Of a DNA stretch of 64,000 nt, positions 1,895-27,645 are shown piece after piece. The notes beneath the pieces are model-generated. The model made no database searches. It was not told the DNA's origin and saw only the letters and a list, made by a program, of their open reading frames with translations. The stretch's first letter is position 1, and every line of letters starts with the position of its first letter. Both the position numbers and the translations under genes were made by a program. The stretch comes from Clostridia bacterium (lineage in GTDB: Bacteria; Bacillota; Peptococcia; DRI-13; UBA5745): NCBI GenBank assembly GCA_018434325.1, contig JAHDPO010000007.1, forward strand, positions 62,001-126,000, in the 5' to 3' direction.

Positions 1895-1955
1895 CTCCAA
1901 TAGCACAAACCATCCCGTATTGAATCATCTACAGCAAAAACAGAGCAGGCGGCCG

Positions 1956-2027
1956 GATACCGGCTATCCGATATAGGTTATAGGCTATGAACTATCGCCT
2001 ACCATCCGGCAGATACCGGCTATCCGA
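1956..2027 (+). repeat. Paired hairpin-forming repeats between dctP and dctQ
   Basis: The 16-base word GATACCGGCTATCCGA occurs at 1956-1971 and again at 2012-2027. Each copy can fold, because CGGATA/TATCCG-like arms surround CCGGC in the first copy and the second is nearly the same. The two lie in the 160-bp gap between dctP and dctQ in an otherwise tight operon. Hairpins at this place could protect the dctP message from 3' decay so that binding protein exceeds permease, as seen in other binding-protein operons (inference). Confidence 0.6.
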
Positions 2028-2054
2028 ACCGCCTGGTTTCGGAAGGGGATGACT

Positions 2055-2573
2055 ATGAAAAACAAGCTGATCAATGAATTTGAGATTTATCTGGGCGCCG
2101 TTTGCTCCGGCACCATGGTGACCATTCTCTTTGTACAAGTAATCGCCCGCTACGTCTTCAACAACGCTTTCTCTTGGGCCGAGGAGTTAGCCATCATCTT
2201 TTTTATCTTGTCCATCTACTTCGGCGCTACGGCGGCAGTCAGACGCAACCAGCATCTCCGTCTGGCCATTGTGCTGGACAGCCTGGGTCCCAAAAAACGT
2301 CTGATCCTGGAAATCATCGATAATGTGTTTTTCTCATTATTTAATATCATTATTCTCTGGGGTATTTTACCCATCATTCAGAAACTGAAGCTCAATGGTA
2401 CCAGTACTGCGGTAACCGATATCCCCAAATGGATAATCTATAGCTTTTTACCTGTTTTGTTCGTTTTAATGCTGGTTCGTCTCTATCAGGATAGCATAGA
2501 AAAATATAAAAAAATTAAAGAGCTGAATAATCAGCCCCAAGGCTCCGGCCAAGGCGGAAAGGGAGGTTTTTAA
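2055..2573 (+). CDS. dctQ: TRAP transporter small permease (DctQ family)
   Basis: Small membrane subunit of the TRAP transporter, 172 aa, with four predicted membrane segments. The block FSWAEELAIIFFI is the DctQ signature. I start at the ATG at 2055 because the one at 2049 touches the GGAAGGGG ribosome binding site, leaving no spacer, whereas 2055 has a 6-base spacer. The gene ends one base before dctM starts, so the two permease subunits are translationally coupled. The C-terminus is a short charged, Gly-rich tail. Confidence 0.92.
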   Translation: MKNKLINEFEIYLGAVCSGTMVTILFVQVIARYVFNNAFSWAEELAIIFFILSIYFGATAAVRRNQHLRLAIVLDSLGPKKRLILEIIDNVFFSLFNIIILWGILPIIQKLKLNGTSTAVTDIPKWIIYSFLPVLFVLMLVRLYQDSIEKYKKIKELNNQPQGSGQGGKGGF

Positions 2574-3860
2574 ATGGCAACAGCAGTACTATTTCTCGTA
2601 GCTTTTTTCCTGCTGGCCATCGGCGTGCCTGTAGGTATTTCCCTGGGCTTTGGCATGGTCGCCGTAGCTTTAGGCTTTCATACCACCAACCTGACCTTCC
2701 TGGCCCAATCCATGTATTCCGGATTTGAATCTCTGCCGTTGACGGCTATCCCTGCCTTCATGCTGGCGGGAGCCGTTATGGAAACCGGCGGCCTGTCCAA
2801 AAGACTGGTCAACGTGGCCAACAAGCTGGTGGGCAACACTACCGGCGGTTTAGGCACCGTCACCGTCATCGCCTGCATGTTTTTCGGAGCTATCTCCGGC
2901 TCCGGCCCGGCTACCGTGGCCGCCATCGGCACCATTATGATTCCTTATATGGTGAAGGCCGGCTACGACCGCACCTACGCTACCGGCTTATCGGCAGTGG
3001 CCGGCGGCTTGGGCATCATCGTGCCGCCCAGTATCCCCCTGGTCATTTACGGCGTCGCCACCAATACCTCCATCGGCGACCTTTTCCTGGCCGGCATCGG
3101 ACCCGCTTTTGTGGTAGGCGGCCTGTTGATCGTCACCAACTTCTTCTTATCCAGAAAAGCCGGCTATCTGGGCGACGGCAGTTCTTTCAGCACGAAGGAG
3201 CTATTTAAGGCCCTCTGGGATGCCAAATGGGCTCTGCTGATGCCCCTGATCATCCTGGGCGGCATCTACGGCGGTATCTTCACCCCCACCGAGGCCGCCG
3301 TAGTCTCCATCTTCTACGGCATTCTGGTCGGTATCTACGGCTATAAGGAGCTGACCTGGCCCCGGGTCTGGAAGATGCTGGTGGACAATACCTCCTTCGT
3401 CGGCGGCATCATGCTGACCTTCGCGCCGGCAGCGGCTCTCGGTGCAGTACTGGCTCTGCTGAAAGTTCCCAGAGATTTGACTAACCTGCTCTTCAGCATT
3501 TCCAGCAACAAAATCGTCGTCCTGCTGGTCGTCAACGTCTTCCTGGTCTTTGTGGGTATGCTGGTGGATACCACTTCGGCCAACATCATCTTCTCGCCCA
3601 TCCTGCTGGCGGCTCTTAAGCCTTACGGCGTAGATCCCATCCACTTCGGCCTGATGATGACCATCAACCTGGCCATCGGCTTCGTTACCCCGCCGGTAGC
3701 CGGCAACCTCTTTGTAGCCTCCGGCATGACCGGTATACCAATGGGAGCCATCGCCAAGAAAGCTATGCCTTTCATTATTGCGATGTTCCTGGCCCTGATG
3801 ATTGTCACTTATCTGCCCATCACTTCTTTAGGGCTATTACAACTTTTGGGCAGATATTAA
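2574..3860 (+). CDS. dctM: TRAP transporter large permease (DctM family)
   Basis: Large membrane subunit that moves the ligand using an ion gradient, 428 aa, the usual family length. It is hydrophobic throughout, with about 11-12 predicted membrane segments. Family features include the Gly-rich GAISGSGPATVAAIG stretch near residue 105, the IVPPSIPLVIYG motif near residue 150, and FVTPPVAGNLFVA near the C-terminus. It directly abuts dctQ and ends about 40 bp before a shared terminator, so the operon ends here. Confidence 0.95.
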   Translation: MATAVLFLVAFFLLAIGVPVGISLGFGMVAVALGFHTTNLTFLAQSMYSGFESLPLTAIPAFMLAGAVMETGGLSKRLVNVANKLVGNTTGGLGTVTVIACMFFGAISGSGPATVAAIGTIMIPYMVKAGYDRTYATGLSAVAGGLGIIVPPSIPLVIYGVATNTSIGDLFLAGIGPAFVVGGLLIVTNFFLSRKAGYLGDGSSFSTKELFKALWDAKWALLMPLIILGGIYGGIFTPTEAAVVSIFYGILVGIYGYKELTWPRVWKMLVDNTSFVGGIMLTFAPAAALGAVLALLKVPRDLTNLLFSISSNKIVVLLVVNVFLVFVGMLVDTTSANIIFSPILLAALKPYGVDPIHFGLMMTINLAIGFVTPPVAGNLFVASGMTGIPMGAIAKKAMPFIIAMFLALMIVTYLPITSLGLLQLLGRY

Positions 3861-3902
3861 AACCCCTTCCCTCAAATCGATAAAATAATTACTGCCCATT
3901 AA

Positions 3903-3956
3903 AAAACAGGGTGCGGTAAATCAGCTGACTAAAGCTCATTTACCACACCCTGTTTT
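3903..3956. terminator. Bidirectional terminator between dctM and dnaJ
   Basis: Inverted repeat with 19-base arms, 3903-3921 and 3938-3956, differing at one base that still allows a G-U pair. Each arm ends in a run of A or T, so it can stop transcription from dctM on the plus strand and from dnaJ on the minus strand. Confidence 0.9.
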
Positions 3957-3960
3957 GATA

Positions 3961-5115
3961 CTATTCTTTATCAAAGAGCCGCTCAAAAAAGTTTTTCTTG
4001 CCGTTTTTCCCTTGGGAGCGGTAGTTCTCCTCCCCGGAGCTTTTGGCGAAATCTTTGAGCAAATCCTTTTGCCGCTGGTCAAGCTTGGTGGGAGTCGCAA
4101 TGATCACCCGCACCAGCTGATCCCCCCGTCCGCTGCCTCTGAGCTGCGGTATTCCTTTGCCTTTCAGCCGCAGCAGCGTATGTGTCTGCACTCCCTCCGG
4201 CACCTTCAGCGTAGCTTTGCCATCCAGAGTATCCACCTGAATATCGGCGCCCAAAGCAGCTTGGGTAAAGGTAACGGGCATCTCCATATAGACGTCGTTG
4301 CCCCGCCGCTCAAAGAGCTTATGGGGGCGAACCCGGACAAAGATATACAGATCACCGGAAGGGCCGCCTCTGGCTCCAGCCTCACCTTCACCGGAAAGGC
4401 GGATACGGGAATCATTATCCACACCGGCCGGGATTTTGACCTTGAGGGTTTTGCGTTTGCGCACCCGGCCCTGGCCATTGCATTCCGGACAGGGCGTCTC
4501 AATGATCACCCCTTCGCCGCCGCAATCAGGACAAGGCCGCACCGACTGGAAAGTACCCAGAGGAGTTCTCTGCATCGTCTTTACCTGGCCGCTGCCGCCG
4601 CACTTTTCGCAGCGCTTCTTGGTGGTACCTTCCTTGGCCCCCGTTCCCTGACAACTGCTGCAGGATTCGGCCCGCACCACTTCCACATCCTTTTCGGCGC
4701 CAAAGGCCGCTTCCTCAAAGGAAAGCTCAATATCCTTGCGCATATCGGCGCCCCGCTGGGGCCCCTTAGGCCGGCCGCCTCCCATAGAACCGCCGTCGCC
4801 GCCAAAGAACATGTCGAAGATGTCGCCGAAGCCGCCGCCATCGCCAAAACCACCGAAGCCGCCGCCAAAACCGCCGGCGCCGGCCTGGCCGTCCACACCG
4901 GCATGGCCGAATTGATCGTAACGGGCCCGCTTGTCGGCGTCGCTGAGGATTTCGTAAGCCTCATTGATCTCCTTGAACTTATCCTCCGCCTCTTTATTGC
5001 CGGGATTCTTATCCGGGTGGTATTGCATGGCCAGCTTGCGGTATGCTTTTTTCAAATCGGCGTCCTGGGCGTTCTTTTGAACGCCCAGGACCTCATAATA
5101 ATCCCGTTTTGCCAT
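3961..5115 (-). CDS. dnaJ: Chaperone protein DnaJ (Hsp40)
   Basis: Cytoplasmic co-chaperone that delivers unfolded proteins to DnaK and stimulates its ATPase, 384 aa. Domains in order: J domain (about 4-68) with the essential HPD motif in YHPDK; a Gly/Phe-rich linker (about 75-115); a zinc domain with four CxxCxGxG repeats ([32 protein letters not shown]); then the C-terminal substrate-binding domains. It is the last gene of hrcA-grpE-dnaK-dnaJ. The GGAGG ribosome binding site at 5126-5130 lies inside the first copy of a long repeat that separates it from dnaK. Confidence 0.98.
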
Positions 5116-5121
5116 GATTAA

Positions 5122-5259
5122 AACGCCTCCGTAGAAAAATTTCGAGGGTCGAAATTTTTCTTCCCTCTGTGCGTTTCAACGAGGCGGCAGATATCCGCTC
5201 ACTGTCATACCTAAGCGGTACCCGCTGCCTGTTGAAGACGAGGCGTCAATCGCCTCGTT
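5122..5259. repeat. Tandem 138-bp repeat, copy 1 (dnaK-dnaJ spacer)
   Basis: First of two copies with a fixed offset of 165 bases and no gaps between them. Each copy contains several foldable parts: a 10-base palindrome pair (GAAAAATTTC / GAAATTTTTC), AGCGG-GTA-CCGCT in the middle, and GAGGC / GCCTC at the distal end. The proximal end supplies the dnaJ ribosome binding site. It has no coding potential. Confidence 0.85.
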
Positions 5260-5286
5260 CTAACGCCTCCGCGATTGCCACTTTAT

Positions 5287-5424
5287 AACGCCTCAGTAGA
5301 AAAATTTCGATTGTAGAAATTTTTCTTCCCTCTGTGCGTTTCAACGAGGCGACAGGTATCCGATCACCGTCTTACCTAAGCGGTACCCGCTGCCTGTTGA
5401 AGGCGAGGCATCAATCGCCTCGTT
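5287..5424. repeat. Tandem 138-bp repeat, copy 2 (overlaps dnaK stop)
   Basis: Second copy of the repeat at 5122-5259, separated by 27 bases that themselves contain another AACGCCTCC word. The end of this copy supplies two bases of the dnaK stop codon at 5423-5425. A few substitutions distinguish the copies (for example in the loop of the AAATTT hairpin), while the hairpin arms are kept. Confidence 0.85.
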
Positions 5425-7267
5425 ATTTATCGTCCTTCACTTCAAAGTCTGCATCCACTACCGTCTCATCACCGCCGGCATTGCTGCCGCCGTCAGCAGA
5501 ACCCTGCTGGTAATCGGCTTCGGCGCCTTGACCCTCAGCCTGCTGATACAGCTTGGCCGAAATGGCGTGGAGGGCGGTGGTCAGCTCTTCCGTCTTAGAC
5601 TTCATTGCCTCATAATCGTTGGCTTCAATAACCTTTTTCAGGGCAGCCGCAGCTTCTTCCACTTTAGCCTTTTCGTCGGCAGTAGCTTTATCGCCTACGT
5701 CTTTCAGCATTTTTTCGGACTGGTACACCAGGTTATCGGCATTATTTTTAATCTCGGCTTCTTCCTTGCGTTTCTTGTCCTCGGCGGCATTTTGCTCCGC
5801 TTCCTTGACCATCCGCTCGATCTCCTCGTCGGTGAGGCCGGTTCTGGCGTTGATGGTAACGGTCTGAGCCTTGCCGGTACCCATATCCTTAGCGGAAACG
5901 TGGACGATACCGTTGGCGTCGATGTCGAATTTCACTTCGATCTGAGGGATGCCTCGGGGAGCCGGAGCGATGCCGGACAGCTGGAAGCGGCCTAAAGTCT
6001 TATTGTAATTGGCCATTTCCCGCTCGCCCTGGAGTACATGGATGTCTACCGACGGCTGATTGTCGCTGGCCGTGGAGAAAATCTGGCTCTTGGAAGTAGG
6101 AATGGTGGTATTTTTGTCGATGAGCCGGGTGAAAACGCCGCCCAGGGTCTCAATGCCCAAGGACAAGGGAGTTACGTCCAGCAGCACCACGTCTTTGACG
6201 TCGCCGGCCAAAACACCGCCTTGAATAGCGGCGCCGATAGCCACGCACTCGTCGGGATTGATGCCTTTGAAGGGCTCTTTGCCCATCAGGTTCTTGATGG
6301 CTTCCTGCACCATGGGCACCCGGGTGGAACCGCCCACCAGCAACACCTTATGGATATCAGAGGCTTTCAGATCGGCATCCTTCAAGGCCTTTCTGGTGCA
6401 TTCCAGAGTCAGATCCACTAAGTCTCTGATCATATCCTCGAATTTAGCCCGGGACAGAGTCAGATCCATGTGCACAGGGCCCTCGGCGGTAGCGGTAATG
6501 AAGGGCAGGTTGATCTGGGTGGTCATCAGATTGGATAATTCGTGCTTGGCCTTTTCGGCAGCTTCTTTTAAGCGCTGTACAGCCATTTTGTCGTTTTTCA
6601 GGTCGACGCCGTTGGATTTCTTAAATTCGGCAATCATCCAGTCGATGATCCGCTGGTCGAAGTCGTCGCCGCCCAGACGGTTGTTGCCGTTGGTGGCCTT
6701 TACTTCGAAAACGCCGTCACCGATATCCAGGATGGATACGTCGAAGGTACCGCCGCCCAGGTCATAAACCAAGATGGTATGGTCGCCTTCTTTATCTACG
6801 CCGTAGGCTAAGGCAGCCGCCGTAGGCTCGTTGATGATCCGCAGCACTTCCATGCCGGCAATTTGGCCCGCATCTCTGGTGGCCTGGCGCTGGCTGTCCG
6901 TAAAGTAGGCCGGCACCGTAATTACCGCCTGAGTTACCGTCTCGCCTAAGTAAGCTTCGGCGTCGGTTTTTAATTTCTGCAGGATCATTGCGGAGATTTC
7001 CTGAGGGCTGTACGATTTATCCTCGATCTTCACCTTAAAATCGCTGCCCATCTCCCTTTTGATGGATTGGATAGTCCGGTCCGCATTGGTAATAGCCTGG
7101 CGTTTGGCCACCTGACCTACCAGCTTCTCGCCGGTTTTGGAAAAAGCCACTACGGAAGGCGTAGTCCTGGCTCCTTCAGAGTTGGGGATAACAACTGCTT
7201 CGCCGCCTTCCATGAAAGCAACGCATGAATTTGTGGTTCCTAAGTCAATACCGATAACTTTTGCCAT
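5423..7267 (-). CDS. dnaK: Molecular chaperone DnaK (Hsp70)
   Basis: Main cytoplasmic Hsp70, 614 aa. The N-terminal ATPase domain has [11 protein letters not shown] (phosphate loop 1), [10 protein letters not shown] (phosphate 2) and a GGSTRVP motif; the substrate domain and a helical lid rich in Glu/Lys/Ala follow; the tail ends in [11 protein letters not shown], typical for bacterial DnaK. A longer frame exists upstream, but ATG 7267 has a GGAGG site 8 bases away and begins the conserved [10 protein letters not shown] sequence. It lies about 110 bp after grpE in the HrcA-controlled operon. Confidence 0.99.
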
Positions 7268-8026: not shown

Positions 8027-9061
8027 CTATTTGTCTTTGAGCCCTTCGGATAAAAACTGGCTCATATAATCCAGCAAGCCGGCAGTCCTTGAATAATCCA
8101 TTCGCGTAGGCCCTAACAGCCCCACCCTGCCGATGACCCGGCCGCTGATCTGATAGGTGGCCGTCACCAGACTGCAGGCAGCCAGGTTTTCGTAATCATT
8201 TTCCGTGCCGATCTTAATAGAAATCGGCTGGCGCTCGCTGCTGCCCATTTTCAGCATCAGGTCTTCCATGATACGCTGCTCTTCCAGCAGGGAAAGCACC
8301 TGCTTAACCTTATCCACATCACGGAATTCCGGCTGGTTCAATATATTTAACGTACCGCTTAAGTAAAGCTTCCGCTCATACTCCACGGTCAGGGTGTCTT
8401 CAATGACCTCTAAAATCTCTTTGAGCAAATGAATTTGGCCGTCCCATTGCCTGCGGATGGCCTGCAAAGGGGTTTTGCGCCACTCTGCCACCGTGAGGCC
8501 GCAGACAGCCTGCCGCAGCATATCGCTGAGCTCGTTGATTTCCTCGTTGTTCAAAGGCTCAGGCAAATCAATAACTTGGTGCTCCACATGGCCGTTATCC
8601 AAAACTAAAATCAAGACCAGCTTTTTTTCGGCTACCGGCACCAGCTGGATGTGAGTCAGCACATTCTGGCTGAAAGCAGACAGTATCAACACGGCCGTAT
8701 AATTGCTGATTTGGGACAAAAGCCTGACGGCTCCCCGCACCAGGTCTTCCTTGACCTTAATCTGATCCTTCAGGTTGCTGCGGATATATTTCTTAATCTC
8801 GTCCGTAACCAGCTGCTTTTCCATCAGATAGTCCACATAATAACGATAGCCAATCTGGGAAGGAATCCGGCCGGCAGAGGTATGGGGCTGCTCAATAAGG
8901 CCCAGGTCCTCCAGATCCGCCATCTCATTGCGAATAGTAGCGGGGCTGACGCCCAGGTCATATTTTTTGGTAATCGTCCTGGAGCCTACCGGCTCGGCGG
9001 TGGCAATATAATCCAGTATGATTGCTTCCAAAACCTTTTTCTTTCGGTCTTCTAACTGCAA
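8027..9061 (-). CDS. hrcA: Heat-inducible transcription repressor HrcA
   Basis: Repressor of the dnaK operon, 344 aa. An N-terminal winged helix (about 1-70) contains VGSRTITKKYDLGVSPATIRNEMADLE, here cited only as the HrcA helix-turn-helix block; a GAF-like middle domain and a C-terminal dimer region with VGRVGLLGPTRMDY follow. The start codon is TTG at 9061, placed 9 bases after a strong AGGAGG site. The matching CIRCE operator lies 80 bp upstream, so the gene represses itself and grpE-dnaK-dnaJ; HrcA folding by GroEL is the known titration signal. Confidence 0.97.
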   Translation of the reverse strand: MQLEDRKKKVLEAIILDYIATAEPVGSRTITKKYDLGVSPATIRNEMADLEDLGLIEQPHTSAGRIPSQIGYRYYVDYLMEKQLVTDEIKKYIRSNLKDQIKVKEDLVRGAVRLLSQISNYTAVLILSAFSQNVLTHIQLVPVAEKKLVLILVLDNGHVEHQVIDLPEPLNNEEINELSDMLRQAVCGLTVAEWRKTPLQAIRRQWDGQIHLLKEILEVIEDTLTVEYERKLYLSGTLNILNQPEFRDVDKVKQVLSLLEEQRIMEDLMLKMGSSERQPISIKIGTENDYENLAACSLVTATYQISGRVIGRVGLLGPTRMDYSRTAGLLDYMSQFLSEGLKDK

Positions 9062-9142
9062 AACTCGCCACCTCCTTTCAGGAGCCTTCTTTAGCTTTTC
9101 CCAAAAATTAAACCATAATCATCACTCTTATTTTTAAAGCTG

Positions 9143-9169
9143 TTAGCACTCTATCATTTCGAGTGCTAA
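9143..9169 (-). promoter_or_regulatory. CIRCE operator (HrcA binding site)
   Basis: Perfect TTAGCACTC - 9 bases - GAGTGCTAA inverted repeat, the classic CIRCE element. It lies just downstream of the -10 box of the hrcA operon promoter. Confidence 0.98.
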
Positions 9170-9183
9170 ACCTTACAATGATA

Positions 9184-9212
9184 AATTTACCACTTAAAAA
9201 ATCCATTGTCAA
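9184..9212 (-). promoter_or_regulatory. Sigma-A promoter of the hrcA-grpE-dnaK-dnaJ operon
   Basis: On the minus strand, TTGACA (9212-9207), a 17-base spacer and TAAATT (9189-9184). The predicted start of transcription falls next to the CIRCE element, as expected for HrcA repression. Confidence 0.88.
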
Positions 9213-9461
9213 TAGGTTGTCGAAGAAAAGTCAGGGAAAGTCAAATTTTTTTCATTTTCGCTTTGCCAGCATGAGCAGTGCGCCAGGGCAACGGGCAGCG
9301 GGCCGTGCGATGCCGTGAGCAACGGGGGCGATGTCCGGAGCAGCGGTTAGCGTATCATTAGCTCTCGCTAACATCTAGCACAACCTCGTTTTTTGCACAC
9401 TTGGCCATAACCCGCGCCAGCTGGGCAGCACCGCCAATTGACCATTTCAGATGGCAGAGAC
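9213..9461. other. Non-coding stretch upstream of the heat-shock promoter
   Basis: About 250 bases with no convincing gene. A GC-rich patch near 9270-9350 contains several CGGGC/GCAACGGG words without a clear repeat unit. An open frame here lacks a ribosome binding site and any family resemblance. Confidence 0.5.
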
Positions 9462-9663
9462 GAGGCCACTGAAAAAGTTGCTCAAACCTCAGCCCAAATA
9501 TGCAAAATTGCAGGTTTAAAGTGTGTTGCTTATTCAAAATGCGGCCCATTCTCTTGCCGATGCACTAGATATAGTCAAATGCAGCCAAATACAGCCAAAT
9601 GCAGTCCCCAAAATGGTGTTCAGACACTTTAACTTGAAATTTTGCTCATTTTTCAGTGGCTTC
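9462..9663. mobile_element. MITE-like inverted-repeat element A (IS relic)
   Basis: The ends are GAGGCCACTGAAAAA (9462-9476) and its near-perfect inverse (9649-9663). Inside lies a second inverted pair: GCAAAATTGCAGGTTTAAAGTGT at 9502-9524 is cited by position, and its inverse is at 9624-9645. There is no transposase frame. A related inner pair occurs at 17025-17148. The outer ends resemble IS termini, so this is probably a deletion derivative of an insertion sequence. Confidence 0.6.
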
Positions 9664-9714
9664 GGCAGCGACTCCCCGCCTGCGCAAAATTCGGTGCTTC
9701 AATCAAGGCAAAGC

Positions 9715-11253
9715 TTACAATAAATATTCCTGCACCCAATAATTATAGGCCAACCAGCCCTCAATAGTTGGGCATAACCGCCCCCCCTCCTCCTGCAGCC
9801 AGCCGGCGGCCAGGTGTTTCTCCAGCACAGGGCCATAGGCTTGCCACAGGTCAAGACCCCAACGCTGCCGGAACTCACTTGGATCTATGCCTTGCTTCAA
9901 CCGAAAAGCCAGCATCAGCTCTTCTTGGCGGCCCAAAGTGGGTGTGATCTCTTCCCGCTCCGCCAGAGGCAACCGCCCCTGCTCTATAGCCGCCAAATAG
10001 CTTGCTAAATCCCCTGTATTGGTGTAGCGGAAGCCTCTGCCGCTTTGGTTCGTTGCCGCGCCAACGCCTGCGCCAACACCTGCGCTGGCTTCTATGCTGG
10101 CAGCCACCCCTACGCTTGCCCTTGTGCTTGTGCAGGTTCCAGCCTCCGGGGCAATCGTCTGGCTGCCGGCTCTCGTTGCCTCCGTTACCTCCGTTGCGTC
10201 CGTTGCCTCCGCTGCCGGCGCCGGCAGATAGCCGGCCGCCCCCGCGCCCAGGCCTAAATAATAGCCGTTGCGCCAATAAAGGCTATTATGGCGGCTTTCC
10301 TTGCCGGGCAAAGCGTAATTGCTGATTTCATAATGGCCGAAGCCCGCTGAAGTCAGCAGCTCATGGGCCAGCAAATATTGCTGCCGGCAGGTTTCTTCAT
10401 CAGCCACACAGAACTCGCCGGCGGCGGCCCGCCGGGACAATACTGTTTCCTCCTCTATATTCAGCTGATATAAAGAAATATGTTCCGGCGCAAAGGTTAG
10501 TGCCTGTTCCAGAGTTTGCCGCCAATGGGCCAAGGTTTGCCCTGGCAGACCATAGATTAAATCCAGGCTCATGTTGCGGAAGCCGGCTTGACGGCCCAGC
10601 TCCCAGGCCTGGCGAAAATCGGCGGCCCGGTGTCCCCGGCCCAGCCAGGCTAAATATTGGTCATCAAAGCTTTGGGCCCCTATAGACAGGCGGTTGCAGC
10701 CGGCTTTTTGCAGCAAAGCCAGCTTGCCTTCATTTAAAGTACCCGGGTTAGCTTCCACGGTAAACTCTCTAAATGTCTCTTCGGTAATAAAAAGTTCTTT
10801 TAATCCCCCGGTCTGCCCGGCGGCAGCCACTGCCGGCGTCGGCAATGCTGATGGTACTGACGGCGGCGGCGCCTCCGTTGGCGCCCCCAGCAGCCCAGCG
10901 AAAATTTCCGCCAGGATATCTTCAGCCAAATAAGTGGGTGTGCCGCCGCCGAAATAAATGGTGGACCAGTTTCCATTTTCCTGGCCGGTTTGCTCCCCCA
11001 GCAGCGCTTGTTGCCAAAGCCTTGGTTCAACAGCTGGCCTTTCCCCCGAGGCCCCCCTGCCACCGGCGCAGCTGCCCAGCCCCCGATTTTGCCGATAAAG
11101 CTGCCATTCCCGCAGCAGCCCCTGCTTATACCGCTCCTGCCAGCTGCGGTCCAGGCCGGCAGTGGAAGCAAAGCTGCAATAGTGGCAGCGGCTGAGACAA
11201 AAAGGGATATGGACGTATAAGCCCATACCCTGTTTTTTTACTGTTTCGCTCAT
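9715..11253 (-). CDS. hemW: Radical SAM protein HemW (heme chaperone / HemN-like)
   Basis: HemW family, 512 aa. The radical-SAM cluster motif CLSRCHYC (Cys19, Cys23, Cys26) sits in HIPFC..CHYC with no extra N-terminal extension, which favours HemW over true coproporphyrinogen dehydrogenase HemN. Conserved blocks IYFGGGTPTYL, EANPGT, LSIGAQSFDD, LIYGLPGQT and HYEISNYA are present. The protein is longer than the usual size of about 380: a Gly-rich insert lies near residues 55-95 and a Thr/Ala/Val/Gly-rich low-complexity insert lies near 345-410. It starts 40 bp after lepA ends, the usual Firmicute gene order. Confidence 0.93.
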   Translation of the reverse strand: MSETVKKQGMGLYVHIPFCLSRCHYCSFASTAGLDRSWQERYKQGLLREWQLYRQNRGLGSCAGGRGASGERPAVEPRLWQQALLGEQTGQENGNWSTIYFGGGTPTYLAEDILAEIFAGLLGAPTEAPPPSVPSALPTPAVAAAGQTGGLKELFITEETFREFTVEANPGTLNEGKLALLQKAGCNRLSIGAQSFDDQYLAWLGRGHRAADFRQAWELGRQAGFRNMSLDLIYGLPGQTLAHWRQTLEQALTFAPEHISLYQLNIEEETVLSRRAAAGEFCVADEETCRQQYLLAHELLTSAGFGHYEISNYALPGKESRHNSLYWRNGYYLGLGAGAAGYLPAPAAEATDATEVTEATRAGSQTIAPEAGTCTSTRASVGVAASIEASAGVGAGVGAATNQSGRGFRYTNTGDLASYLAAIEQGRLPLAEREEITPTLGRQEELMLAFRLKQGIDPSEFRQRWGLDLWQAYGPVLEKHLAAGWLQEEGGRLCPTIEGWLAYNYWVQEYLL

Positions 11254-11292
11254 TATGATTCCTCACCTGATCTTGCTTTGACCGGCAGCGGT

Positions 11293-13101
<1,809 letters not shown>

Positions 13102-17889: not shown

Positions 17890-19599
17890 TCAATAATATC
17901 CTTTGAGCAGCTCCGTGACCTGGGCAGCCTCGCCTAGCTCCAGGGCCTCCCGGGCAAGCTGCTTGGCTTGGGCATAATCAAGATTACGGATGGTTTTTTT
18001 CACAGTCAGGAGAGAGCTGGCGCTCATGGAAAATTCATCAAGACCCATGCCGATCAAAAGGGGCGCGTACTTTTCCTCCCCCGCCATTTCGCCGCACATG
18101 CCGGTCCACTTTCCCGCCCTGTGGGATACGTCGATCACGTGCTTGATAAGCCGCAGCACCGCCGGATGCAAAGGCTTATAAAAGTCGCTCATCTTTTCGT
18201 TTAAACGGTCCACGGCCAGCGTGTACTGGACAAGATCGTTTGAGCCTATGGAAAAGAAGTCCACATCCTCCACAAAATGCTCGGCCACAATGGCCGCCGC
18301 CGGGATTTCGATCATGATCCCCTTTTCAATATGCTTATTATAAGGGATCCCTTGGCTGTCCAGTTCCGCCATGGCCTCAAAAAGAGCCTGATTCGCTGCT
18401 TTAAGCTCCCATTTGGCGGCAATCATGGGGTACATGATACGGGCTTTCCCGTAACAGCTGGCCCGCAGGATGGCCCGCAGCTGGGATTTGAAAATATGGG
18501 GATGCTGAAGGCAAAGGCGAATGGCCCGCATACCCAAAAACGGGTTCATTTCCGGTTCAATTTGCAAATAAGGAAGGCTTTTATCGCCGCCAATATCCAG
18601 GGTGCGGATGATTACCGCCCGGGAGCCCATGGCTTCAAGAGCTTTCCGATAAGCAAGATACTGCTCCTCTTCATCCGGCAGCGTAGCTCTGTTCATATAT
18701 AAAAACTCTGTCCGAAAAAGGCCCACGCCTTCCGCTCCGTACCTGAGCCCGCTGGCGCAGTCCTCGGCGGAGCCAATATTCACAGCCAGCTCCACTCTCC
18801 TGCCGCCGTCTTTGGTGACTGCGGGAAGATCAACGAGCTGCTGCATTACGTTTTGTGATTCAATATATTCCAGCCGCTTCTGCTCGTAGGTCCGAAGCTG
18901 TTCTTCGCCGGGATTCACAATCACAATGCCTGCCGTGCCGTCCACGATTAAAAGATCACCGTTTTTCGCCGTTTGGGCAATATCTTTTATGCCCAGTACT
19001 GCCGGAATTTCCAGGGAGCGGGCCATAATCGCCGTGTGGGAGGTTCTGCCTCCCAGTTCGGTGACAATAGCCTTTACTTTTTCTTTATCCATGTGAGCGG
19101 TATCCGAAGGGGTCAAATCTCTGGCAATGACGATGCAATCTTCCGCCATTCCGGCGCATCTGTCTCCCTCTTCTCCGGAAAGGCAGCGCAAAAGACGGCT
19201 CGATACGTCGCGAAAATCGCCGGCCCGTTCCTTCAGGTATTCGTCTTCCATCTGATCAAACAGACTGCAATAGCCGTCCATGGTTTTTTTCACAGCACAC
19301 TCGGCTTTACTGCAATCGGACAAAATCAGGCTTTTCGCGTCCTTGTGCAAGGTTTCATCCTGCAGGATGGAAATGTGGGCGTCAAAAATCGCCGCATGCT
19401 TGGCATTCAATTCCCGCAAGGCTTTTTCCTTAACTCCCTGTATTTCTGAAATAGCCTTGTGAATGGCCTCATCCAGACGGAAAATCTCCTGCTGCAAATT
19501 TTCCGCCTTGGCCGTTAAATTTTCCAAATAGTTGGTTTCAGCCAGCACATAGGCGCGTCCGATGGCAATACCCCGGGACGCTGCAATTCCCGTTTTCAT
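17890..19599 (-). CDS. ptsI: PTS Enzyme I (phosphoenolpyruvate-protein phosphotransferase)
   Basis: Starts the PTS relay by moving phosphate from PEP to HPr; 569 aa, normal length. The phosphohistidine motif GGRTSHTAIMARS is near residue 190; the PEP-binding barrel has GLFRTEFLYM, IRTLDIGGDK, and MCGEMAG. GGGGAGGAG precedes the ATG. It lies 40 bp after the HPr gene inside the RLP operon rather than at a separate housekeeping ptsHI site, so it looks dedicated to this system; whether another ptsHI exists elsewhere cannot be seen. Confidence 0.97.
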   Translation of the reverse strand: MKTGIAASRGIAIGRAYVLAETNYLENLTAKAENLQQEIFRLDEAIHKAISEIQGVKEKALRELNAKHAAIFDAHISILQDETLHKDAKSLILSDCSKAECAVKKTMDGYCSLFDQMEDEYLKERAGDFRDVSSRLLRCLSGEEGDRCAGMAEDCIVIARDLTPSDTAHMDKEKVKAIVTELGGRTSHTAIMARSLEIPAVLGIKDIAQTAKNGDLLIVDGTAGIVIVNPGEEQLRTYEQKRLEYIESQNVMQQLVDLPAVTKDGGRRVELAVNIGSAEDCASGLRYGAEGVGLFRTEFLYMNRATLPDEEEQYLAYRKALEAMGSRAVIIRTLDIGGDKSLPYLQIEPEMNPFLGMRAIRLCLQHPHIFKSQLRAILRASCYGKARIMYPMIAAKWELKAANQALFEAMAELDSQGIPYNKHIEKGIMIEIPAAAIVAEHFVEDVDFFSIGSNDLVQYTLAVDRLNEKMSDFYKPLHPAVLRLIKHVIDVSHRAGKWTGMCGEMAGEEKYAPLLIGMGLDEFSMSASSLLTVKKTIRNLDYAQAKQLAREALELGEAAQVTELLKGYY

Positions 19600-19639: not shown

Positions 19640-19900
19640 TTAATCTTGCAAGCTTTCCAAAAATTCCGCTGCTTTTGTTATGGCTTCTTCTTCGTCACTG
19701 CCTTCCGCCTGCAAGATAAAGGAGGCTCCGCTGCCGATACCGCCGGTAAGCAAGGATACGATACTTTTTGCGTCGATCTCCTTATCCTTATAAAGGATCA
19801 ATAGACGGGATTGAAAACCGTTGGCGAATTTTACGAAAGCAGTTGCCGGCCGGGCATGCAGGCCGGTCTGATTTTGAATGACTATCTCTTTTTTTAACAT
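19640..19900 (-). CDS. ptsH: PTS phosphocarrier protein HPr
   Basis: 86 aa. The active-site His15 lies in QTGLHARPA. Ser46 in AKSIVSLL is present, so regulation by HPr kinase is possible, as in other Firmicutes. The strong AGGAGG site lies before the ATG. It stands between the sigma-54 activator and ptsI. Some residues differ from housekeeping HPr (for example LLTGGIGSGASF instead of the common LMSLGVKQG-like segment), consistent with a specialised copy. Confidence 0.95.
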   Translation of the reverse strand: MLKKEIVIQNQTGLHARPATAFVKFANGFQSRLLILYKDKEIDAKSIVSLLTGGIGSGASFILQAEGSDEEEAITKAAEFLESLQD

Positions 19901-19958
19901 AGGGGATCTCCTCCTAATTGCAGCATGATATCATACAGCTCCCTGGGCGTCTTTGCCG

Positions 19959-22808
19959 CTAAAAGCGGCGGCGAAACCCCTTGCCGGCGCCCAGGCTATA
20001 AATCTGCTTAATAATCGCTTCACAGGGATTTTTCAGGGCAAGAAACAGGACAATGTTGCAATAGAATCCTTTTTCCCAAAGAATTGGCCGGGAAAGAGTC
20101 GCTACAGCAACGGCTGAGCGCAGGGTGTGCTCCGGGTAAGTGTGGGCAAGAGCGATGCCCTTGGTAAATCCGGTATTGCCCTGAGCCTCCCGCTGCATAA
20201 TTCCCTCCAGGTAGGAATCCGCTACAAAGCCTTCTTTGGCCATAGCCTCCGCCACATGGCGGATGAGGGCAGTCTTAGAACGTATTTCCAGCTGCGGAAA
20301 AAACAGCCGAGGCTGTAAAAGACTATCTATTCCCTGAATAGCCGGCGCCAGGGGCTCCAAATATTGAAAATGCAGCCGCACAAGAGCCCGAATCTCCGAA
20401 AGGCCTTGCTGGTCCATGGCTTTTCGCATAGAGATATAAAGAATATCCTTTATTCCCGGATCAACGGTTCCAATCATGGCGATAATTTGCTTTTTACGGC
20501 GCATTTCGCTGATCTGCTCCAAATAATTATCCGTCATCACCCCCAGGGGAATGATTTCCGTCTTATGCTCGGCAAGGAGGGGGACATTCTGCTCTAAAAT
20601 TTGTTTGATCTCCATGGCAGCGCCTTTGCCGGTCATACATAGGATAACGATAGCCTTCGGCAAATCTTTTTTTATAGAATAGACGGTATAGGGGCTTTCT
20701 TTGCCCACACTTTCATACAGCTCCGTAAGACTCAGATTCTGATGAGCCGCTTTGAAAGCGGCATCCAACACCATGGCTGTATGCACCTTGGCAATGGATT
20801 TTGTGGGGATTCCGGTTTCTTTCTGTATGACGTCGCCAAGGGTAACCGTCGCCCCCATATCGGCCAAAAGCAGTATGCCCTTTCCCTCGTGAGAGGCCTT
20901 GGCCATGGCGATGGTTTGCGATACATAGGCGGTGTTTTTTTCTTCCAGGTTGATACAGATATGGCGGACGAAATCAATCTCCAAAAGCCGGTTGGCCACT
21001 TCAGCCATCTCGCGGCCCACATAGCCGTGAGTGACCACAAAAACCTGCACACAACTTTTCGTTGGGGGGTATGCCTGGTTTTGGGCAAGATAAAGAGCGA
21101 TATAAGCGGCTTCCTCGTCGGGGAAGCCACAAGCCAGCTTTTGCTCCGCCAGGGCCAGCATTTTCCGGGCAAGTGCAAATTCTTTAGGATAGTTCGCCTT
21201 AATCTGTTCAAGCCGGGGATTCATGATGGGTTTTTTCTGGCGCAGGCGCTCATAGCTTTGGTGAAAATGAATGGAGAGGTAATAAGCGATATCCTCATTC
21301 AAAGGACCCGTCTCCTCTGCCGCCAGCGCCTCCATCTCCTGCAGGGTCTCCAGCAGCGAGGGCCCTACTATTGCACCGATACCCAGCCGCTCCGAACCGG
21401 AACTGATCTGGTTCAAGTTGCGCAGAGTGCGTTTTAAGCGGCTTTCCAGCTCGTCTCCCACGATTTTTTGGGTTTCATAGCCGGAAACCCCTTCCTGCTC
21501 CAGTTGGCGATGACGTTCTTCAATGAATTTATAAATCCCGTCAGGCATGAGGAAGGTATCGCTCTCATCAAAAACCCATACCTGGGCCTCGTCAGGCAAT
21601 ACCCGGATGCCCTTGTCGAGATAGGGAACGAGAGCCTTTTCCGAATATTTGCGGCGTAAAAGGCCCTCCTTGACATTCTCCGAAAAATCCAGCAGCGTAA
21701 CGGCCAGCAGCTTATCCCGATTGTCCAGATGCCGGATATAGGCCCTGGCGCAGGATACCTGAATATCAGATAAAAGCTGGCCGATGTTTCCGTAGCAATC
21801 GTAGGCTAGAAGGGCGCAAATCACCTCAGAGCTGACATTAATTCCCGCCCCGATACGCACCGCTTCCTGCAGAAAAAAGCTTTTAATCAGCTCGTAACGC
21901 TCCTGGATACTGCGGTGGCGCAGAGGCGGTATTTCAATAATCATGGGAATACGCCGGGTAAAAGGCAAGGTCAGGCTTGAGCCGATTTCCTCCGTGGTGG
22001 CCCCGATGATCATTATCTGAATATCCCGCTCTTTTCCCGTTTCACCAAGGCGGCGGTATTTACCTTTGTCAATAATGGTGAACAGGATTTCCTGGCCTTC
22101 CGGAGGCAGGCGATGGATTTCGTCAAGAAACAGAATGCCACCGTCGGCTTTTTCCACCAGCCCCGTTTTATCTGCATCCGCGCCCGTAAAAGAACCTTTT
22201 ATATGACCGAAGAGCTGAGAAACCAGCAGCTGAGGGTTGTTATAGTAATCGGCGCAGTTGAAGCGAACAAATTTGCCTTTATCCACCCCTCGCTTTTCAT
22301 GAGCGATCTGAAACATGATCTCGGCAAGAACGGTTTTGCCGGTACCCGTCTCCCCCAAAATCAGTGTGTGCAGACCCCGGGGCGGATAGCAAACGGCTGC
22401 CTCTGCTTTTTTCAGGATGGGCTGCATGCTGCCTGTTTTGCCCACCAGCCGCTCAAGGGGAGAAGCAGGAAGCTTGGGCGCTTCCGGCGGCTCCCACCGC
22501 GCCTGAGGCAGCTCTCTGCGATAAGCGGATACGGTGTATTTGGAAATATCGTAACCCTCCTCCTGCAAAAGCCGGGTCAGCTCCCGATCCGATAAAAGAG
22601 GATCTTTCTGCAAGAGGCGCTGCAAGTCTTCCTGCAGATAAGGTTTGCGTCTTTCGGAATAAGAGGGGATTCCGGTTTTTTGGCGCAGCCGCACAACCAC
22701 CTGCCTGGACAGACGAAGCTCATTGGCCAACTGGTCATCCGTTAAAGGGGTCTTCTTACTTTCCGAAGCGATCAGCTTCACCAGCAGCGTTTCCCATTTG
22801 ACGCCCAT
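19959..22808 (-). CDS. LevR-type sigma-54 activator with PTS-responsive domains
   Basis: 949 aa. Domains by sequence: N-terminal helix-turn-helix region (about 1-100); AAA+ sigma-54 activator domain with Walker A GETGTGKT (152-159), GSFTGA (205-210, a GAFTGA variant that contacts sigma-54) and Walker B LFLDE (226-230); a PTS regulation domain (about 460-560); an EIIA-Man-like domain with VTHGYVGREMA (about 580-700); an EIIB-like segment with ILCMTGKGAAM (about 715-800); and a C-terminal mannitol/fructose-type EIIA-like domain with GIALAHTYPEH. The start at 22808 has GGAGG 7 bases away. It lies downstream of EIIC in the operon it presumably controls from the -24/-12 promoter at 27553-27568. 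PTS phosphorylation of its histidines would report substrate flux (family knowledge). Confidence 0.92.
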   Translation of the reverse strand: MGVKWETLLVKLIASESKKTPLTDDQLANELRLSRQVVVRLRQKTGIPSYSERRKPYLQEDLQRLLQKDPLLSDRELTRLLQEEGYDISKYTVSAYRRELPQARWEPPEAPKLPASPLERLVGKTGSMQPILKKAEAAVCYPPRGLHTLILGETGTGKTVLAEIMFQIAHEKRGVDKGKFVRFNCADYYNNPQLLVSQLFGHIKGSFTGADADKTGLVEKADGGILFLDEIHRLPPEGQEILFTIIDKGKYRRLGETGKERDIQIMIIGATTEEIGSSLTLPFTRRIPMIIEIPPLRHRSIQERYELIKSFFLQEAVRIGAGINVSSEVICALLAYDCYGNIGQLLSDIQVSCARAYIRHLDNRDKLLAVTLLDFSENVKEGLLRRKYSEKALVPYLDKGIRVLPDEAQVWVFDESDTFLMPDGIYKFIEERHRQLEQEGVSGYETQKIVGDELESRLKRTLRNLNQISSGSERLGIGAIVGPSLLETLQEMEALAAEETGPLNEDIAYYLSIHFHQSYERLRQKKPIMNPRLEQIKANYPKEFALARKMLALAEQKLACGFPDEEAAYIALYLAQNQAYPPTKSCVQVFVVTHGYVGREMAEVANRLLEIDFVRHICINLEEKNTAYVSQTIAMAKASHEGKGILLLADMGATVTLGDVIQKETGIPTKSIAKVHTAMVLDAAFKAAHQNLSLTELYESVGKESPYTVYSIKKDLPKAIVILCMTGKGAAMEIKQILEQNVPLLAEHKTEIIPLGVMTDNYLEQISEMRRKKQIIAMIGTVDPGIKDILYISMRKAMDQQGLSEIRALVRLHFQYLEPLAPAIQGIDSLLQPRLFFPQLEIRSKTALIRHVAEAMAKEGFVADSYLEGIMQREAQGNTGFTKGIALAHTYPEHTLRSAVAVATLSRPILWEKGFYCNIVLFLALKNPCEAIIKQIYSLGAGKGFRRRF

Positions 22809-22869
22809 CCGGTCCCCTCCTTTCCTTAACATTTCTATCTTGTCAAAATATTATGCCCTTGCCAGGTCA

Positions 22870-24578: not shown

Positions 24579-25022
24579 TCAGATAAGCAGGCGGTATATC
24601 TCCTCCGGGGTTATAGCGGCCAGTATCTTTTCTGCCTTCTCCTTTTGGCTGATCAGGCCCACCACATCGCCAAGGCATTCCAGGTGCTCCCCCTTCTCGC
24701 TGGAAGCCAGGGCCACAACGATTGATACGGGATCATTATCCTCGTGCCCAAAATGCACGGGAGGCGTCAGCGTAATTAAACTTATCCCTGTTTTCAAGGC
24801 CCCATCCTCCGGTCGGGCGTGGGCCAGAGCAAATCCCGGCAAAATGACGATATAGGGGCCGAACTCCTCCACATAGCCAATCATTTTACCAATGAAAGCT
24901 TCTTCAACAATTTCTTCTTTGACGAGAAGCCGGCCGGCTTCCCTTACTGCGCTTTTCCAGTCCGGACAGGCAAGGTTGCAGGCAATGGCATCCTTTGACA
25001 AAAAGTTTGCAATATTGGACAT
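24579..25022 (-). CDS. PTS EIIA, ascorbate type (UlaC-like)
   Basis: 147 aa, PTS_EIIA type 2 fold. The phosphohistidine is His68 in GFALAHARPEDG, matching APGLAMPHGRPEEG of UlaC; EEFGPYIVILPG and HEDNDPVSIVVALAS are further shared blocks. GGAGG is 4 bases before ATG. Together with EIIB and EIIC downstream it makes a complete Enzyme II. Confidence 0.93.
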   Translation of the reverse strand: MSNIANFLSKDAIACNLACPDWKSAVREAGRLLVKEEIVEEAFIGKMIGYVEEFGPYIVILPGFALAHARPEDGALKTGISLITLTPPVHFGHEDNDPVSIVVALASSEKGEHLECLGDVVGLISQKEKAEKILAAITPEEIYRLLI

Positions 25023-25097: not shown

Positions 25098-26141
25098 TCA
25101 GGGAATAAGAATAACCTTCAAAACCTGACCTTTTTCCGCCAGCTCCACAGCCTCGTTAATTTGCTCCAGAGGCATTTCGGCAATATAGGCATCCGTATCA
25201 AAGGCCTTCTTTGCAAGAAGCTCCATGATCTGGGAGAAATGCCTTTTGCAGGAGCCCATTGTGCCGAATACCGCCATTTGCTTATAGTGGATCAGGCCGT
25301 GGTCCATAGCCAGCATTTTATCCTTTTCGTTCAGCCCTCCAAAGAGAATGATCCGACCGCCAAAGCAGGCAAGCTCCGGAGAAATGGACTGCAGATGAGG
25401 TACGGAGCAAGCAATAACCACAATATCCGCTCCCCGGCCGCCGGTATACTCCAGCACCTTTTCCTTCAGATCTTCTTTGGAGCTGTCGATCAGATATTCG
25501 GGGCCGGAGGCCTTGGCGGCAAGCTCAAGTCTCAGGGCGGATATATCAGCCAATATACAGGTGACGCCTTTGGCCCGCAGAAGATCAACATGCATCGCCC
25601 CGATAGGGCCTGCCCCTACGACAACGGCCGTCTCGCCTGCCCGGATAGTGATCAGCTCATGAGAATTCAAAACGTCGGTAAAGGGCTCCACCAAAGCGGC
25701 TTCCGCATAACTTACATTCTCCGGTATCGGCACTATCGGCCCCCGCTCCACCATTTCTTTTTTCAAAGCGATATATTCGGCATAGCCTCCCTGATAATCC
25801 GGGTCATGTTGGCCCAAGCTGTGGTAAATCGCATTTTCACAGAGGTTGTCGATGCCTTTTTGGCAGTTGGGACAATGGCCGCAGGAAATAACGGAACCGA
25901 TAGCAATTCTGTCACCCACCGCAAACAAATAAGTATCTGATTCAATCACGTCGCCGGTTACCTCATGGCCCAACAGCACAGGATAGCGGAAATGGCTGCT
26001 GCCGTTTCTGATCTTGCGGATGTCGGAGCCACAGAGACCGCAGGCCTTCACTTTCATCAGAAGTCCGCCGGCGGGACAGGCGGGAGTTGCTACTTCCCTG
26101 ACGTGAAGCTGGTTTACCCCATCCAACATAGCAGCTTTCAT
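25098..26141 (-). CDS. Zinc-dependent medium-chain dehydrogenase
   Basis: 347 aa, MDR superfamily. Catalytic zinc region CGLCGSD and GHEVTGDV; structural zinc cysteines in CGHCPNCQKGIDNLC; nucleotide-binding GAGPIGAMH near residue 175 followed by an acidic residue (LADIS) that favours NAD over NADP. It is closest in layout to sorbitol, threonine or L-threonate-type secondary-alcohol dehydrogenases. It lies 16 bp after the RLP gene. Inference: it oxidises a secondary hydroxyl of the imported sugar phosphate to the keto compound acted on by the RLP. Confidence 0.92.
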   Translation of the reverse strand: MKAAMLDGVNQLHVREVATPACPAGGLLMKVKACGLCGSDIRKIRNGSSHFRYPVLLGHEVTGDVIESDTYLFAVGDRIAIGSVISCGHCPNCQKGIDNLCENAIYHSLGQHDPDYQGGYAEYIALKKEMVERGPIVPIPENVSYAEAALVEPFTDVLNSHELITIRAGETAVVVGAGPIGAMHVDLLRAKGVTCILADISALRLELAAKASGPEYLIDSSKEDLKEKVLEYTGGRGADIVVIACSVPHLQSISPELACFGGRIILFGGLNEKDKMLAMDHGLIHYKQMAVFGTMGSCKRHFSQIMELLAKKAFDTDAYIAEMPLEQINEAVELAEKGQVLKVILIP

Positions 26142-26157: not shown

Positions 26158-27489
26158 TCAGATGAGATAGTTTTTCTTGATATTTTCTTCCCCTACGACG
26201 CCCCATTTATCGATAGCCACCTGGAGCTCTTTATGAGTCTTGGCATACTCCCGAAGAGGAATACCTTTTTTTGCCGCATCAATAGCCTGACGAAGGGCTT
26301 TGGCCCCGGCTGTAGGCCCTTCCGGGAAACCATGCACTGCGGCGCCGGCGCCCATGATGCAATCGTCGCCCACCAAGTCCATCATATAGGGGATGTTGCC
26401 GGCAATGGTGCCGCCGCCCCACAAGGTGAAAATCGGCTTAATATCGTAAAATTTGCCGGTACCGGTGATCATCGCCTTAATGGACACATGCTGCAACTGG
26501 TCAAATTTTCCGATGGGATGGGGAATGACCTGAATATCCGCACCGCAAAGGCGGGTCAGTTTGTTGATGACCGTCGTGCTGATTCCCTGGTAAGGAGAGG
26601 AATAAGCTGTGCCCGTAAAGCAAGGATGGGAAAGGATGGGTACGTTGACGTCAGGGTCCTCTGCCAACATCCGCAAGGCGGCAAGGCCGTTTGCCCAGCC
26701 GTCGATCATGATGGCATTGGCGCCGGCCCTGATGGCCTTCATGGCGTTGTCTTTCAAGCGGCTTATCTCATCGGTGATGTTGCAGGTATAAAGGGTTTTT
26801 TCGCCCTTCACCTTTTCCGCCCGGTAGGCTGCCTCCATATTTTTGGAAACCCTTTCTTCAATGGTATTGAACTTGCGGTCGCCGGCAATCAGCTCATCAT
26901 CTTTGATGAAGTCCACGCCGCCGACAGCAGCTTTATAGAAGAGGTCGGCGCCAACATCAGGAGTATAGCCGGTACAGGGTTTAATCATATTGTTGAGCAG
27001 CGGACGGTCATAAACTCCCAGAATATTGCGAATACCTTCAATCCCGAACTTGGGGCCTTTAAAAGTCCGGACAAAGCTTTCCGGGAAATCGATGTCCAGG
27101 CATTTCATGTTGGGCAGCGCGCTGATGTTGCCCATGATGGAACCCAGCAAAAGAGGGATATCGTCGTCAAAGTTGACGGCAGGATAGCCGATGCGCAGGA
27201 TATAATAGCGCAGACCATTATCCGGGATCACCCGCAGATCGGTGGCGTTCACGTAATCCGGAACCTCATAGACGCCAAATACCTTGCCGGCATATAGCCT
27301 CCTCATTTCATCGGTTTCGCAGGATACATCGGTCCAGGAGCCGGTGGTCTGCTCAATGGCAATGCTTGCGGCCTTGACGATGGGGTCTTCGTGTTTTTCC
27401 GCACCCACAAGATATGTGGCTACCAGATATTCATTGAGATTTACGCCTTCTACCATAGGGTTCAATACGGTGCTGTAGAATTTATTCAT
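26158..27489 (-). CDS. RuBisCO-like protein (form IV, RLP)
   Basis: 443 aa, homologous to the RuBisCO large subunit. Aligned by motif: E46 and W52 (spinach E60, W66), N121 (N123), K170 (K175), K196/D198/E199 in GGVDFIKDDE (carbamylated K201 and metal ligands D203, E204), H288 (H294). Lost or changed: K177 is Cys172, R295 is Pro289, and the loop-6 GKLEG motif with K334 is not conserved in position. So the magnesium/enolisation site is kept but the protein should not fix CO2 on ribulose bisphosphate. The start at 27489 follows AGGAGG; the longer frame has no site. It is the first gene after a sigma-54 promoter and leads a PTS operon. Known RLPs act as enolases, isomerases or (trans)decarboxylases on sugar phosphates; this one has no assigned reaction. 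Confidence 0.95.
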   Translation of the reverse strand: MNKFYSTVLNPMVEGVNLNEYLVATYLVGAEKHEDPIVKAASIAIEQTTGSWTDVSCETDEMRRLYAGKVFGVYEVPDYVNATDLRVIPDNGLRYYILRIGYPAVNFDDDIPLLLGSIMGNISALPNMKCLDIDFPESFVRTFKGPKFGIEGIRNILGVYDRPLLNNMIKPCTGYTPDVGADLFYKAAVGGVDFIKDDELIAGDRKFNTIEERVSKNMEAAYRAEKVKGEKTLYTCNITDEISRLKDNAMKAIRAGANAIMIDGWANGLAALRMLAEDPDVNVPILSHPCFTGTAYSSPYQGISTTVINKLTRLCGADIQVIPHPIGKFDQLQHVSIKAMITGTGKFYDIKPIFTLWGGGTIAGNIPYMMDLVGDDCIMGAGAAVHGFPEGPTAGAKALRQAIDAAKKGIPLREYAKTHKELQVAIDKWGVVGEENIKKNYLI

Positions 27490-27552: not shown

Positions 27553-27568
27553 AGCAAAAGACATGCCA
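27553..27568 (-). promoter_or_regulatory. Sigma-54 (-24/-12) promoter of the PTS-RLP operon
   Basis: On the minus strand TGGCATGTCTTTTGCT matches the TGGCAC-N5-TTGCW consensus at all but one position, with exact spacing between GG (-24) and GC (-12). Predicted transcription start is near 27542, leaving a leader of about 53 bases before the RLP ATG. The operon encodes its own sigma-54 activator. Confidence 0.85.
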
Positions 27569-27623
27569 TCCTGTGGAAGGAAGTGTTATCCCCTGATCGA
27601 TTATGCTGATTCCAAAGGTAATT

Positions 27624-27645
27624 TTTCAATAAAATAATTTTGAAA
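27624..27645. promoter_or_regulatory. Candidate upstream activator site
   Basis: Dyad TTTCAA (27624-27629) - 10 bases - TTGAAA (27640-27645) in AT-rich DNA about 70-90 bases upstream of the -24 box, a normal place for an enhancer of a sigma-54 activator. A short dyad in AT-rich DNA can arise by chance. The rest of the 424-base gap holds the two promoters and no gene. Confidence 0.35.

Follow-up and report, generated by a model that had tools for sequence, protein, structure and literature searches.

In bacteria, the textbook example of action at a distance is sigma-54-dependent transcription, and most of the enhancer-binding proteins (EBPs) that drive it act from remote sites. The closest described relatives of the system analyzed here are LevR and CelR of Bacillus, Clostridium and Listeria, which are PTS-controlled sigma-54 activators (PMC3162934, PMC10864463). 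The locus studied here shares with them a sigma-54 promoter, the control of a PTS operon, and an activator that carries an N-terminal DNA-binding domain, an AAA+ domain with a GAFTGA/GSFTGA motif, a PRD and an EIIA-man domain. It differs in that the N-terminal domain of the activator and of its relatives is of the RpoN type and by profile unrelated to that of classical LevR, in that a C-terminal EIIA_2 is present and the second PRD absent, and in the sequence box next to the promoter, classical loci carrying TGATACACT instead.

We read the locus as a sigma-54 promoter served by an operon-encoded activator with an RpoN-related DNA-binding domain, which likely acts at a candidate box abutting the promoter and is switched by PTS phosphorylation, for an operon devoted to a sugar-like compound. 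We give this reading a probability of about two in three.

The operon and its PTS relay

On the minus strand of the window (the whole 64 kb stretch of DNA that was analyzed), eight genes follow one another with short gaps in the order rlp, zinc-dependent dehydrogenase, EIIA, EIIB, EIIC-GAT, activator, HPr and EI, and are presumably transcribed as one unit. Terminator-like sites within the operon were below shuffle level and were disregarded.

26158 to 27489, minus strand: rlp, RuBisCO-like protein (RLP), below every NCBIfam cut-off
25098 to 26141, minus strand: zinc-dependent medium-chain dehydrogenase
24579 to 25022, minus strand: PTS EIIA, ascorbate/mannitol type, PF00359
24265 to 24549, minus strand: PTS EIIB, PF02302
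22870 to 24243, minus strand: PTS EIIC (EIIC-GAT, PF03611); an internal ATG is probably the true start
19959 to 22832, minus strand: sigma-54 activator gene; the ATG at 22808 may be the start
19640 to 19900, minus strand: HPr, with His15 and Ser46 present
17890 to 19599, minus strand: PTS enzyme I (EI)
G000:C42:24472-26442, in the paralogous operon of the same genome: EI and HPr genes

The operon offers a defined setting for a family of RuBisCO-like proteins. The rlp product keeps the IKP and KDDE motifs, and its best NCBIfam match is of the MtnW type; identification as MtnW (2,3-diketo-5-methylthiopentyl-1-phosphate enolase) was rejected, the scores being 327 and 291 bits against NCBIfam cut-offs of 409 and 514. 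The association of an RLP with PTS and zinc-dependent dehydrogenase genes recurs in other loci. RLP, an activator of the branch defined below, EI and HPr occur together at seven further loci (the paralogous operon on C42, one locus from the same family and five from the same order), and C42 and L041, the loci scanned for other genes, also contain EIIA, EIIC-GAT and the zinc-dependent dehydrogenase. The paralogous operon (L035, G000:C42:20001-40000) thus comprises an RLP, a sigma-54-type activator, EI, HPr, EIIA, EIIB, EIIC-GAT and a zinc-dependent dehydrogenase; it is preceded by genes for the E1, E2 and E3 components of a 2-oxoacid dehydrogenase and has two exact -24/-12 sites (18538, 19585). 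At another locus (L017, G109:C23), an RLP relative contains one in-frame TGA within the match.

Two EI and two HPr genes were found in the genome, all of them in the window operon and its C42 paralogue. A third EI match is partial and lies in a frame of 900 amino acids, and no housekeeping PTS relay separate from the two RLP-activator operons was seen in the genome. Since the sole EI and HPr genes reside in these operons, the phosphate relay that would control the activator is encoded by the very operons under its control. A preliminary description of this DNA had proposed a closed circuit in which PTS flux controls the activator and the activator controls the PTS; as both EI genes and both HPr genes lie in these operons, the autoregulatory circuit would be tighter than was first claimed. 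Encoding the relay in the controlled operons also creates a start-up problem.

The sigma-54 promoter

Four sequence elements upstream of rlp have to be considered.

27553 to 27568, minus strand: sigma-54 promoter TGGCATGTCTTTTGCT, predicted transcription start at about 27542
27574 to 27586, minus strand: candidate activator box ACACTTCCTTCCA of the form ACA-N7-CCA, separated by 5 nt from the TGGC downstream and spanning about -44 to -32
27600 to 27629, minus strand: sigma-70-like TTGAAA-18-CATAAT, 10 of 12 positions matching, frequency not above shuffles
27624 to 27645, no strand assigned: TTTCAA-N10-TTGAAA dyad TTTCAATAAAATAATTTTGAAA, its left arm being the -35-like hexamer

The -24/-12 box TGGCATGTCTTTTGCT, read from 27568 to 27553, has an exact GG-to-GC spacing of twelve bases and one mismatch against TGGCAC-N5-TTGCW, and it agrees with the Clostridiales sigma-54 consensus TTGGCATNNNNNTTGCT (PMC6615313) at all specified bases except the first T. 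No other place in the window matches with fewer than two mismatches. Matches with two mismatches number 29, against 40 in shuffles, so that looser matches carry no weight and were discarded. The whole genome (3.83 Mb, 98% complete) contains 28 exact matches to TGGCAYN5TTGCW and two to the reversed control pattern; many of the exact sites have an EBP gene within about 1.5 kb, and the same genome contains a complete rpoN (G000:C21) in which AID, CBD and DBD were all found. The rlp ATG, at 27489 with an AGGAGG ribosome site in front, lies 63 nt downstream of the box, from which the start of transcription is predicted at about 27542. The near-perfect sigma-54 box previously noticed before rlp is hence confirmed, at the level of sequence, as a genuine sigma-54 promoter motif.

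Alternatively, the main promoter of the operon might be the sigma-70-like one at 27600-27629, the sigma-54 site being minor or dead, since the TTGAAA-18-CATAAT sequence points in the right direction and ranks near the top of the sigma-70-like sites in 10.6 kb of scanned sequence. We consider this very improbable: shuffled sequence contains such sites at least as often, whereas the sigma-54 site is near-consensus and accompanied by the box of its activator branch, and sigma-54 sites adjoin nearly all related activators. The sigma-70-like site is a candidate basal promoter.

The activator

The operon-encoded activator had been described as LevR-type with a GSFTGA motif. An AAA+ domain (PF00158, 140.7 bits) is indeed present and contains GSFTGA, the variant of Bacillus LevR, at residues 213-218 (about 22179-22196). 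It forms part of a chain consisting of a sigma-54-type DNA-binding domain, AAA+, PRD, EIIA-man, an EIIB-like Cys and a C-terminal EIIA_2, which thus includes PTS-phosphorylatable domains. In the PRD (PF00874) and EIIA-man (PF03610) region, H522 does not vary among 23 relatives and H602 is conserved in at least 90% of them; C732-x-T-G is conserved at the EIIB-Gat position, where a Pfam match to EIIB-Gat is absent. There is one PRD stretch in the window activator, EIIA_2 taking the place of a second, C-terminal PRD. The LevR-type assignment therefore holds for the AAA+ domain with GSFTGA, the PRD and EIIA-man; it does not extend to the DNA-binding domain, and identity with classical LevR/CelR was rejected because the second PRD is absent and the N-terminal domain is not shared. 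Membership in the DagR family (NCBIfam NF047795) was likewise rejected, at 424 bits far under the family cut-off of 1400 bits; the AAA+ and PTS domains align with DagR, and the match leaves out the DNA-binding domain. At the 3′ end of the gene (window 19905-19990), the last 20 or so codons appear out of frame compared with relatives, and the similarity continues in another frame, which is perhaps an assembly error or else a real change; His897 of the EIIA domain precedes the apparent frame change.

The DNA-binding domain requires separate discussion.

22506 to 22799, minus strand: tandem HTH DNA-binding domain, activator residues 12-109, the first repeat matching PF04552/RpoN box

The activator N-terminus scores 36.0 bits against PF04552 (Sigma54_DBD), for which the curated cut-off is 22.8, in a match spanning profile positions 107-160 only, that is, the last third with the RpoN-box region. 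Its best relatives by sequence in the PDB are RpoN domains, and it has in common with RpoN an ED/SEN..P.(T/S)D motif, an arginine in the recognition helix and a GIPSxxERR tail. After the first HTH, a second unit resembles the first (profile comparison P 1.2e-4, probability 55%, over 27 columns), and an AlphaFold2 model of the domain contains two HTHs with a mean pLDDT of 89.5. In a Foldseek search the model matched best the RpoN domain in complex with the -24 element, and over about 54 residues it can be superposed at 0.7-1.2 Å on sigma-54 from cryo-EM complexes. However, the HTH fold is common and the VIA-align Z-scores of 7-8 are reached by many unrelated HTHs, so that the structural matches were rejected as proof of homology and the argument for it rests on sequence. 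The activator thus apparently begins with a sigma-54-type DNA-binding domain made of tandem HTHs. It resembles the sigma-54 RpoN domain (PF04552; 2o8k) in its sequence motifs and in the predicted HTH fold of the first repeat, and differs from it in having a second HTH and a shorter loop before the recognition helix of the first repeat; unlike sigma-54, the activator has no core-binding or activator-interacting domain. AraC-type proteins, too, carry two HTHs per chain and are able to read half-sites one helical turn apart, but the structural resemblance to them is loose and a sequence relation is absent. No activator with a sigma-54-type DNA-binding domain was found described in a literature search, the coverage of which excluded the approximately 50 PRD activators of Nie et al. 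2016.

A branch of activators with RpoN-like N-termini

When LevR-like activators that had been fetched were scored with an HMM of the N-terminal domain, about 45 gave 74-157 bits and the classical ones all less than 8.5. These roughly 45 Bacillota proteins form a branch distinct from classical LevR, with members in Thermoanaerobacter, Fervidicola, Clostridium, Hungatella, Brevibacillus, Pelosinus, Propionispora, Pectinatus and others. They were found by alignment-based search of genome contigs; the activator alone as query gave no match. In an even sample of the phylum, 32 of 398 genomes had a match to the N-terminal domain. Among 23 members scanned, PF04552 matched in 18, and PRD, EIIA-man and PTS_EIIA_2 were present in all, the last being C-terminal where located. 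Nearly every branch locus has an exact -24/-12 site, which precedes either the activator gene or the PTS gene that comes after it. In a genome of the same family (L042), two open frames beside an RLP gene (8868-9698 and 9701-11812) together make up the homologous activator, and in a Clostridiales MAG (L078), a complete rpoN (1595-3037) directly precedes and overlaps the gene for a sigma-54-type activator (3018-5987).

The box abutting the promoter

Upstream of the -24 element, the window reads TAACACTTCCTTCCACAGGA immediately followed by TGGCAT, and within it the ACA-N7-CCA sequence is a copy of a pattern, ACA-N8-CA, that proved the most enriched in the branch when all gapped 3+2 and 3+3 patterns were enumerated. 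ACA-N8-CA, with its end 5-8 nt upstream of TGGC, is present at 14 of 47 branch sites, but at none of 47 classical LevR sites and none of 25 other sites from the same genome. It occurs in nine activator clusters of less than 55% identity, a count that includes the window and in which loci with two activators were counted once. Branch sites fetched later had it in 8 of 26 cases, compared with 0/72 control sites (Fisher p 1e-5) and with 0.8% in shuffles; since all eight came from one activator cluster already in the discovery set, they represent repetition more than independence. With a PWM trained without the window, the window box scores 8.3 bits, above all 47 classical sites (best 6.0), and reaches p=0.002 when the bases upstream of its own -24 element are shuffled. 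Close relatives show TAACATTTACAACCACTAGT (L046) and GGACATAATCTGCCACAACT (L042, with an imperfect -12), each before TGGCAT. The window copy is among the weaker ones of the branch. The box as such is fuzzy, and roughly two thirds of the branch sites lack it, both C42 promoters among them, which implies either that operators vary or that many of the sites belong to other activators.

The ACA and CCA half-sites lie ten bases, or one helical turn, apart, a spacing that would suit tandem HTHs, and the inner half-site would read TGG, the core of the -24 element, on the other strand. The box is a probable binding site of the activator, and the ACA-N8-CA motif could then help to find the targets of this branch of PTS-linked regulators, which is widespread and apparently undescribed. 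A more far-reaching idea is that the branch took over the DNA-reading domain of sigma-54 and reads an inverted TGG-like half-site, CCA-N5/6-TGG, adjoining -24, so that activator and sigma factor would recognize adjacent elements related as mirror images and looping would not be needed. This is possible but rather doubtful; if true, an activator touching the promoter through a sigma-54-derived domain would be a natural test of the need for looping and would show a route by which activator specificity can evolve from a sigma factor. Proximity to -24 alone is not new, since at classical LevR loci the TGATACACT boxes lie 4-5 nt before TGGC. Boxes like TGATACACT, seen for example at L088, L111, L115, L119 and L123 and in part as inverted or repeated copies, are probably CelR-type operators.

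That the box abuts -24 at nearly fixed spacing, together with the sigma-54 type of the activator's DNA-binding domain, could also mean that it is an extended contact of sigma-54 or RNA polymerase, or a site at which the activator blocks rather than activates. Its absence from 72 control sigma-54 sites, 25 of them in the same genome, speaks against a general contact of sigma-54, though not against repression; overall we hold this explanation to be quite unlikely.

The upstream dyad

Remote action being the rule for EBPs, the activator might still work from a distant enhancer, with the abutting box irrelevant or belonging to another protein. The preliminary description had suggested the TTTCAA-N10-TTGAAA dyad as a possible enhancer; it exists exactly where it was placed, and the C42 operon has a wider TTTCAA/TTGAAA inverted repeat in front of one of its promoters. 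Yet the 345-base region contains two inverted repeats of this size where 1.7 are expected, and the left arm of the dyad overlaps the -35-like hexamer, so that its role as an enhancer is not supported. The dyad recurred with the same arm spacing in none of the other 36 promoters listed, nor was any repeat common to relatives seen at -80 to -150. Action from a distant enhancer, be it the dyad or another site, appears unlikely, and the promoter-abutting box fits the comparative data better than the dyad.

Proposed mechanism

With the activator at the abutting box, the operon would serve the PTS uptake and breakdown of a sugar-like compound. Phospho-control would act on the PRD, EIIA and EIIB domains of the activator; its direction is presumed by analogy with LevR/CelR (PMC10864463). 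When substrate is missing, phosphate from PEP would pass through the EI and HPr of the operon and reach both the transport domains and the activator's inhibitory sites. When substrate is present, uptake would drain EIIA and EIIB, and the activator would lose its inhibitory phosphates. The activator could then bind the candidate ACA-N7-CCA box beside -24, and its AAA+ ring would open the sigma-54 complex from this abutting position, so that transport, breakdown, activator and relay would rise together. The first copies of the activator may be supplied by the weak sigma-70-like promoter just upstream.
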